Part shown: piece by piece, positions 46,316-48,208 of the stretch | How the letters are laid out: each line of letters begins with the position of its first letter | How positions within the stretch are numbered: the first letter of the stretch is position 1 | Source of the DNA: Candidatus Avelusimicrobium excrementipullorum | GTDB taxonomy: Bacteria > Elusimicrobiota > Elusimicrobia > Elusimicrobiales > Elusimicrobiaceae | Length of the DNA stretch: 53,067 bases | Direction of reading: 5' to 3' | Assembly (NCBI GenBank): GCA_019120455.1 | Contig: DWVB01000067.1 | Coordinates: 1-53,067 of the forward strand | The notes under the pieces: model-generated | Databases searched by the model: none | What the model was told of the DNA's origin: nothing | Seen by the model: the letters and a program-made list of their open reading frames with translations, nothing else | Made by a program: the position numbers and the translations under genes

Positions 46316-46732
46316 ATGGGCAAACATTTAAGCTCCAATATGGAAGATTACCTGGAAGCCATTTCCCTGGCCGCCAATGAGGACGGCCTGGCCCGCGTGA
46401 CCGACGTGCGGGATTTGCTGGGCGTCAAAACCCCCAGCGTAACGGGCGCACTGCGCGTGCTGGCGGAAGGGGGGTACCTGAAACATGAGCCTTACCGCGG
46501 GGTGACGCTGACGGCCAAAGGCCGCCGCGCCGCCGAAGACGTGCGCCGCCGCCACGGCATTTTGAGCAGTTTTCTTTCCGAGGTATTGGGGGTAAACGCC
46601 AAAACGGCCAATATAGACGCCTGCAAAATGGAGCACGTCATCAGCCGCGAAACGCTGGAAAAATTGCATGATTTTCTGCATAAATACACCGGCCGGCCGC
46701 GCCATCATACGCCGGATAAAAAAGGAAAATGA
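46316..46732 (+). CDS. DtxR/MntR-family metal-dependent regulator
   Basis: 138 residues. The N-terminal winged helix (MEDYLEAISLAANEDGLARVTDVRDLLGVKTPSVTGALRVLAEGGYLKHE pattern, about 8-60) and the dimerisation part with a metal-ligand-like FLSEVLGV and KMEHVISRETLEKLHDFL segment are those of MntR/DtxR proteins without the SH3 domain. It would repress metal uptake genes when Mn2+ or Fe2+ is abundant; no target transporter is adjacent. GGGGG 5 bp before the ATG. Divergent from gdhA. Confidence 0.88.
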   Translation: MGKHLSSNMEDYLEAISLAANEDGLARVTDVRDLLGVKTPSVTGALRVLAEGGYLKHEPYRGVTLTAKGRRAAEDVRRRHGILSSFLSEVLGVNAKTANIDACKMEHVISRETLEKLHDFLHKYTGRPRHHTPDKKGK

Positions 46733-46866: not shown

Positions 46867-46925
46867 GGGGCTCCCGCGTAGGAGCCCCTTGAGGTTACGA
46901 CTAATTACCCCGTGTTTGAGCGGGG
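46867..46925 (-). terminator. two stem-loops after the LexA-like gene
   Basis: CCCCG/CGGGG directly at the stop codon, and GGGGCTCC/GGAGCCCC (46867-46888) with a 6-nt loop followed on the minus strand by CGTTTT. The second is the likely terminator. The 90 bp further left hold no gene that I see. Confidence 0.6.
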
Positions 46926-47528
46926 CTAAAAATTGCGTTTGATAATGCTGCGCACGATGCCTTCCACATGGAAGCTGTGCGGGTCGGCCACGATGGGGGA
47001 ATATTTTTTGTTCTGCGATTCCAAAATCACGTTTTCCCCGTCGCGGCTGAACCGTTTGACCATCACTTCGCCTTTGTTGACGCAAACCACGATATCGCGG
47101 TTTTTGGGGGTATGGCTTTGCTCCACAATCAGCCAGTCGCGCGGGGCGATGATATTTTCCATGGAGTCGCCTTTTGCTTCCACCATGAAGCCTTTGCAGG
47201 CCGGAAAATAAATCATGCTCGGGTCCACCGGCACCACGCGCGTGGGTACCCCGCTGAGCAGCGTGCCTTCGGGGCCGCATTTGGCGCAGCCGTACATATT
47301 CAGGTACACCACATTGCGTTCGGGGTCTTTTAAAATAATATAGTCGCGCGGGTTTTCGGGGTTGCGTTTGAGGTAGCCTTTCTTCTCCAGCTGTTTAATG
47401 TGGTGGTGGGCCACGCTTTTGCCGCTGACGCCCAGGCGTGCGGCCAGTTCATCCAACGTCAGCGGGTCGGAAATATTGTTCTTCAGGATTTCCAGCAGTT
47501 CTTTTTGTTTGGGGTGCAGTTGTTTCAT
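46926..47528 (-). CDS. lexA: LexA-like S24 repressor
   Basis: 200 residues. The winged helix (8-60: LTLDELAARLGVSGKSVAHHHIKQLEKKGYL) is LexA-like. The C-terminal S24 domain has the nucleophile Ser in AKGDSMENIIAPRD (about 123) and the general base Lys in EVMVKRF (about 158). At the self-cleavage position, where LexA has Ala-Gly, the sequence is YGCAKCGPEGT (about 79-89): a Cys-Gly pair as in UmuD, with a second Cys three residues before. It probably controls a DNA-damage or stress regulon. Direct GTTCTATAA repeats lie just upstream. Confidence 0.82.
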   Translation of the reverse strand: MKQLHPKQKELLEILKNNISDPLTLDELAARLGVSGKSVAHHHIKQLEKKGYLKRNPENPRDYIILKDPERNVVYLNMYGCAKCGPEGTLLSGVPTRVVPVDPSMIYFPACKGFMVEAKGDSMENIIAPRDWLIVEQSHTPKNRDIVVCVNKGEVMVKRFSRDGENVILESQNKKYSPIVADPHSFHVEGIVRSIIKRNF

Positions 47529-47549
47529 ATTATTTACCCGTGTTTAAAA

Positions 47550-47570
47550 GTTCTATAATTCGTTCTATAA
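47550..47570. promoter_or_regulatory. direct repeat GTTCTATAA x2, candidate LexA-like operator
   Basis: Two identical 9-mers with a 12-bp period, 22-42 bp upstream of the lexA start; on the minus strand they read TTATAGAAC and overlap its likely -10 region. Confidence 0.45.
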
Positions 47571-47615
47571 ATTTTTAAGGCCTTTGTAAAGCCCTTCCAA
47601 GACCGTTTTAAAAGC

Positions 47616-47650: not shown

Positions 47651-48208
47651 ATGAATAAAATTTACCCGAACACCTGTTTATGCAGGACAACATATAGTCA
47701 GTGCTCCTTATCCGGTTTTACGCTGATAGAGTTGTTAGTGGTGGTTTTAATTATAGGTATTTTGTCTGCTATTGCTTTGCCGCAATATACCAAGGCGGTG
47801 GAACGCAGCCGCATAGCCGAGGCTCGGTTGATATTGGACAGTATGTACAAAGCTTACCGGCTGTGTGTCCTGGCAAACGGAGAAAATGCCGCCGAGTGTA
47901 AAGGAGAAAATGCAGACAGCAATTTGTTCGTCAATTCCGGTATTTCTCTTCCGGGAGCCGTGTTGTCCAGCGGCTGTTCCGGTAACGGCGTGTGCGTCAA
48001 AACAAAAGACTGGGAATACAGTACCAGCGGTTCTATGTTGTATGCCACCCGTCTGGAGGGAGGAAGCGCAGGCGATTCCCCGTATTGGCTGCAAACAAAT
48101 GGGAGCGATGCAAACAGGATCCTATATTGTATGGATAATCATCAGGCGTATGCCTGTTCTAAATTAGCCCCGTGTGTATCCAAAACGGAAGACGGCTGTC
48201 GTTTATAG
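47651..48208 (+). CDS. type IV pilin-like / pseudopilin protein
   Basis: 185 residues. A 22-residue leader ends in SG, followed by FTLIELLVVVLIIGILSAI, so prepilin peptidase would cut between Gly22 and Phe23. The leader is long and contains three Cys, unlike the eight-residue leader of the pilin at 7-540, yet the core helix is nearly identical. The globular domain has about eight Cys, including a C-terminal cluster, suggesting several disulfides. No assembly genes nearby. It is a second scattered pilin-like gene. Confidence 0.85.
   Translation: MNKIYPNTCLCRTTYSQCSLSGFTLIELLVVVLIIGILSAIALPQYTKAVERSRIAEARLILDSMYKAYRLCVLANGENAAECKGENADSNLFVNSGISLPGAVLSSGCSGNGVCVKTKDWEYSTSGSMLYATRLEGGSAGDSPYWLQTNGSDANRILYCMDNHQAYACSKLAPCVSKTEDGCRL

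Follow-up and report, generated by a model that had tools for sequence, protein, structure and literature searches.

A LexA-type repressor of Elusimicrobiaceae with a putative Cys-Gly cleavage bond and a conserved direct repeat in front of its own gene

The protein that we describe here is very likely an SOS repressor of the LexA type, from a lineage whose cleavage region reads A-x-C-G. It would repress its own gene by binding a GAAC-N8-GAAC direct repeat and would undergo RecA-promoted self-cleavage between Cys84 and Gly85. The gene lies in a 53,067-nucleotide stretch of Candidatus Avelusimicrobium excrementipullorum DNA (hereafter the window), one contig of a 1.41-Mb draft genome whose closest named relatives are metagenome-assembled genomes of uncultured gut Elusimicrobiaceae and Elusimicrobiales. 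Our reading builds on the domains, the predicted fold, an invariant catalytic dyad and P1-P1' pair, and a repeat that is conserved and recurs at recA of relatives; operator binding, RecA-induced cleavage and repression we infer from homology. The features are as follows, all on the minus strand.

47585..47590 (-), possible -35 element TTTACA, found by eye, with 15 nt between it and the TATAGA in the first half-site (47564-47569); column identity 0.89 and 0.78 for the TT at this spacing
47550..47569 (-), putative LexA operator TATAGAAC-N4-TATAGAAC (GAAC-N8-GAAC, 12-bp direct repeat), from sequence and conservation
46926..47528 (-), lexA, open reading frame of 200 aa with a winged-helix DNA-binding domain (residues 1-61) and a Peptidase_S24 domain (79-192)
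47286..47288 (-), codon of Cys81 (P4, first Cys of C-x2-C), variable: of the 53 genus loci, 37 have Met, 13 have Cys and 3 have Gln
47274..47279 (-), codons for the putative scissile pair Cys84-Gly85 (P1-P1'), from the translation; Cys84 and Gly85 in 53/53 genus loci
47163..47165 (-), codon of the putative catalytic Ser122, Ser in 53/53 genus loci; role by homology to LexA Ser119
47055..47057 (-), codon of the putative catalytic Lys158, Lys in 53/53 genus loci; role by homology to LexA Lys156
46867..46888 (-), intrinsic-terminator-like hairpin 3' of lexA, from a terminator scan

Both domains score above their Pfam cut-offs (PF01726, LexA_DNA_bind, 42.6 bits against 23.7; PF00717, Peptidase_S24, 74.7 against 23.3). 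The NCBIfam lexA equivalog model TIGR00498 gives 108.3 bits, narrowly below its cut-off of 110.95, and of ten relatives two exceed this cut-off (113.2 and 117.9) while eight score 77.3-108.8. The UmuD model NF007621 stays at 66.8 bits, under its cut-off of 110. UmuD lacks a DNA-binding domain, whereas the window protein has one. Sequence comparison with solved structures matched LexA chains (best E-value 2.4e-15). An AlphaFold2 model (mean pLDDT 86.4, pTM 0.66) has chain B of Thermotoga maritima LexA (3k2z_B) as its best Foldseek match, with an E-value of 5.5e-15 and a TM-score of 0.56 over the whole predicted chain; for the C-terminal domain, TM-scores normalized by target length reach 0.84-0.85. 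Domains, fold and conservation thus agree with the suggestion of an earlier note on this DNA, made from the letters alone, that the gene encodes a LexA-like repressor with a Cys-Gly pair.

The lexA gene is flanked by a small regulator gene on one side (46316-46732, plus strand) and a pilin-like gene on the other. The stretch contains four terminator-like sites where shuffled sequence gives 1.9 (sd 1.2), and the hairpin 3' of lexA suggests a transcript that carries lexA alone. The neighbour on the other side is a type IV pilin-like open reading frame (47651-48208, plus strand), divergent from lexA. A link between it and the upstream site was considered and rejected: among 75 loci, 26 have a pilin match somewhere in the flanking DNA fetched, with no fixed position, and since this frame is not a constant neighbour of lexA, the site is assigned to lexA.

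The putative cleavage region, YGCAKCGPEG (residues 79-88), contains Cys81 as well as Cys84-Gly85, and the latter aligns with the Ala-Gly pair of LexA. The Cys-Gly pair reported in the earlier note, its C-x2-C and the upstream repeat of 12-bp period all reappear in the translation and the upstream sequence. Cys-Gly is also present in all 18 more distant loci (L219-L236), where the fourth residue before Gly is Ala throughout; Ala-Gly replaces it in two matches that are more distant still (L241 and L242). As far as these alignments can tell, the P1 Cys is a trait of the whole lineage and the extra Cys81 an accident of one sub-clade.

In front of lexA, GTTCTATAA occurs on the plus strand at 47550-47558 and 47562-47570, with a period of 12, so that the lexA strand reads TATAGAAC-N4-TATAGAAC. 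Taken alone, such a repeat in one promoter is only mildly unusual and is weak evidence: when the 120 nt upstream are shuffled, 116 of 5000 sequences contain an exact 9-mer repeat with a period of 9-30, and over the whole window the scan returns 29 such pairs, which overlap. What makes the repeat significant is its conservation across the genus. Among 52 distinct upstream sequences from 53 genus loci, mean column identity is 0.92 within the 20-bp site, against 0.43 in the 36 columns upstream and 0.47 in the 16 columns downstream. The earlier note had held that absence of the repeat upstream of orthologues would speak against its reading; GAAC-N8-GAAC precedes lexA in 52/53 genus loci, the exception (L210) being GAAT-N8-GAAC. 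A first set of 30 orthologue loci, which overlaps with the set of 53, has it in 29, with the same GAAT record as the single exception. Beyond the genus, the repeat is found upstream of lexA in 7/7 loci of other family genera (L244-L250, 56-63% identity), in L251 but not in L252, the two loci that represent further families of the class, and in nine of the 15 loci that are 40-51% identical and come from Patescibacteria, Margulisbacteria and Elusimicrobia (L219-L233). The exact repeat is absent upstream in the other six of these (L221, L222, L224, L226, L232 and L233) and in all three loci at 30-34% identity (L234-L236). Three of the nine distant copies (L223, L230 and L231) are oriented opposite to lexA. 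By eye, many distant lexA promoters also show a further inverted GTTC adjoining a TTGACA-like element.

The same site stands before recA in two sister-genus genomes, starting 77 nt ahead of the gene in G094, where it overlaps a TATAAT, and 132 nt ahead in G260. In a third genome (G261), recA and lexA are divergent with one site in between. The identity of RecA was confirmed in all three, in the first two above the model cut-off. Presence at recA in relatives ties the predicted site to SOS control, and together with conservation at lexA it bears out the direct-repeat operator, still a putative one, of the earlier note. A loose pattern searched in the genomes of ten relatives is not enriched as such (27 matches against 34 in the control), and the case there rests on position: lexA accounts for six of the 27 matches, and two more immediately precede recA. 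The exact site is absent at recA of G042, G298, G299 and G303, in which recA does not closely follow a Clp-type open reading frame. One of these, Candidatus Termititenax persephonae (G298, the genome of L225), carries a site before a radical SAM gene of the TIGR03916 type, putatively for DNA repair, which is truncated where the locus ends (260.3 bits over 148 aa). TIGR03916 finds nothing above cut-off in 60 family genomes, where it returns three weak matches.

Could the repeat or the cysteines be explained differently? It might be argued that the tandem repeat is promoter architecture, namely two overlapping -10-like TATAGA elements, and no repressor operator. TATAGA does resemble a -10 element, and the -35-like TTTACA lies 15 nt away. 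However, both copies are conserved through GAAC, the repeat is reversed relative to lexA in the three distant loci named above, G261 has a single copy between divergent recA and lexA, and a standard promoter consensus scan (requiring a spacer of 16-18 nt) found no promoter at the repeat upstream of lexA. On these grounds, tandem -10 elements are disfavoured, and we regard them as very unlikely. Less probable again is that the repeat serves as the operator of another regulator acting on lexA and, in sister genera, on recA. Such a regulator would accommodate a strong site in G074 (L285:1501-1519, plus strand), where the near-perfect operator TTAGAACAGGATATAGAAC lies amid phage-like genes and adjoins neither lexA nor recA. 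Against it, the site is absent from the three genus genomes without window-type LexA that were searched (G004, G007 and G018), it tracks lexA orthologues over several phyla, and LexA autoregulation is the rule.

A different proposal concerns the protein itself: the C-x2-C, which the earlier note thought might respond to redox or metal, would be a redox or zinc switch, with bound metal or disulfide formation in the cleavage loop governing self-cleavage. Both Cys81 and Cys84 are present in the window protein, and 13/53 genus loci have both. Yet the first Cys, the one whose variation the earlier note had named as telling against its reading, is Met or Gln in 40/53 genus loci, where the operator and the P1 Cys (53/53) remain. 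Moreover, Cys111 is missing in two of the 13 C-x2-C loci, so that these loci do not share one fixed set of four Cys ligands. We rejected the redox or metal switch because Cys81 varies, and consider it the least probable of these explanations. A self-cleaving LexA that acts on its own operator stays the preferred reading.

As regards the G074 site, GTTCTATAA recurs about 120 nt beyond TTAGAACAGGATATAGAAC, and the phage-like region perhaps contains a prophage promoter under host LexA control.

We also looked at how far the control site extends within the genus. The scan that the earlier note had proposed, for paired GTTCTATAA at 12-bp period, recovered the lexA site and nothing else: the 1.41-Mb genome has a single exact GTTCTATAA-N3-GTTCTATAA, and the reversed control has none. 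Allowing up to three mismatches gives 11 matches, of which only the one at lexA is perfect and ten have three mismatches, against 15 in the control. In 41 genus genomes with at most one mismatch, 37 matches lie at lexA and 17 elsewhere, against 45 matches of the reversed-pattern control; for exact WWRGAAC-N5-WWRGAAC in eight genus genomes, the numbers are 8 at lexA and 7 elsewhere against 20. In the genus, the site exceeds background at lexA only. A position weight matrix run over 30 recA and 11 Y-family polymerase loci of the genus detected no site, the best score being 8.6, compared with 26.9 for the lowest lexA site and up to 14.0 for shuffled loci.

RecA itself is widespread (36/37 genus genomes). 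In all 30 genus loci fetched, recA starts 10-27 nt behind a long open reading frame on the same strand, and none has the site. In the window genome, and in G094 of a sister genus, the frame before recA was identified as that of a Clp-family ATPase (best model ClpB, with the frame partial and the score below cut-off); G094 has a 112-nt gap between the Clp-type frame and recA, with the site inside the gap. A neighbour genus (g12) contains both arrangements: recA lies 8-26 nt behind a long frame and has no site in G067, G071, G074, G107, G077 and G101, and it is free-standing and has the site in G260. Y-family polymerases were found in 11/37 genus genomes, with no site at the 11 loci. In the window's genus, transcription of recA appears to arrive by read-through from the Clp gene. 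The SOS circuit seems to have shrunk there, with lexA itself as the only visible target. One may go further and tentatively speculate that the genus keeps a cleavable LexA and a near-invariant operator at lexA only, recA having escaped behind the Clp-ATPase gene, Y-family polymerases being devoid of sites and lexA being lost in some species, so that the SOS circuit is collapsing to a bare self-repressing loop. We give this collapse somewhat less than even weight; the simplest alternative is that there are undetected targets with different or strongly degenerate operators.

Mechanistically, a LexA dimer would lie across the lexA promoter, covering the two GAAC half-sites, which are spaced by about one helical turn, and, bound to the direct repeat, would repress lexA itself. 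RecA on single-stranded or damaged DNA would promote self-cleavage by Ser122 and Lys158 at Cys84-Gly85. Cleavage would lift repression, leaving lexA derepressed until new LexA builds up. In relatives, recA would be under the same switch, whereas in the window's genus the switch would be left with itself as the only visible target.

With canonical LexA (Escherichia coli; T. maritima, 3k2z), the window protein shares the winged-helix and S24 domains, the Ser-Lys dyad, an x-Gly cleavage region and an autoregulatory site. It differs in having Cys-Gly instead of Ala-Gly, direct-repeat GAAC-N8-GAAC instead of an inverted box, and no site at recA in its genus. The layout is, as the earlier note stated, unlike the boxes of E. 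coli or Bacillus; it is not unlike every known LexA box, since direct repeats occur in Caulobacter and Balneolaeota. The alphaproteobacterial (Caulobacter) box is the direct repeat GTTCN7GTTC (PMC9578287), which has the same GTTC/GAAC half-site with a period of 11 rather than 12, and the half-sites here are of the extended TATAGAAC type. A GTTC box with a 7-nt spacer does not fit the genus, where the spacer is 8 nt in 52/53 loci. The Balneolaeota LexA motif is TTACACATATTTTWTACATA (PMC7739468), also a direct repeat and also from an under-studied phylum, with lexA, recA and a radical SAM protein among the targets; a full SOS regulon was bound in vitro there, and the half-site differs from that of the window genus. 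The radical SAM target there parallels the site before the radical SAM gene in G298. Cys-Gly is a documented cleavage alternative in UmuD (PMC8565304, PMC10020695), which also shares the Ser-Lys dyad and the RecA-linked S24 fold. Patescibacteria LexA (Sanchez-Osuna et al. 2017) is cited in PMC7739468 among LexAs that evolved to direct-repeat recognition; several of the relatives found here are Patescibacteria, and the motif of that LexA network may equal GAAC-N8-GAAC.

Direct-repeat LexA boxes and Cys-Gly cleavage are thus each already known elsewhere, separately. As far as the literature examined shows, what may be new is the spacer of 8 nt, the half-site extended to TATAGAAC and a regulon of one gene; no description of an Elusimicrobiota LexA box was found in the literature searched, and LexA studies of Patescibacteria and Verrucomicrobia may overlap. 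For a LexA lineage common to Elusimicrobiota, Margulisbacteria and Patescibacteria, this work provides a candidate box, GAAC-N8-GAAC, that can be tested. It also offers a natural series, with the box at recA present or absent and the box at lexA always kept in the genus, in which one can ask what LexA does once its regulon has shrunk.

The distribution of LexA itself is uneven. Window-type LexA is absent (E-value threshold 1e-30) in 5/58 genus genomes, of which G021 has a fragment at a contig end, and outside the genus it is found in 7/21 family genomes; with draft completeness of 72-99%, an isolated absence carries little weight. G018 and G087 (95% and 98% complete) are two genus genomes without window-type LexA. 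Both retain recA behind a long same-strand frame, and G018 has no Peptidase_S24 match whatsoever. G007 has a second LexA-like S24 protein and no window-type LexA. This second protein, about 31% identical and with an FAQCG cleavage region, was seen in three loci (L125 in G030, L134 in G017 and L126 in G007), and by eye a TTTCTATTTTTAATAGAAA-like inverted repeat lies upstream of its gene in L125 and L134. Another LexA-like group of the order, about 26% identical (L129 in G050, L130 in G046 and L138 in G040), has an ANCG or ASCG cleavage region and a long insert, and AGTATTAAGGAGATATTG is common to the upstream regions of all three loci.
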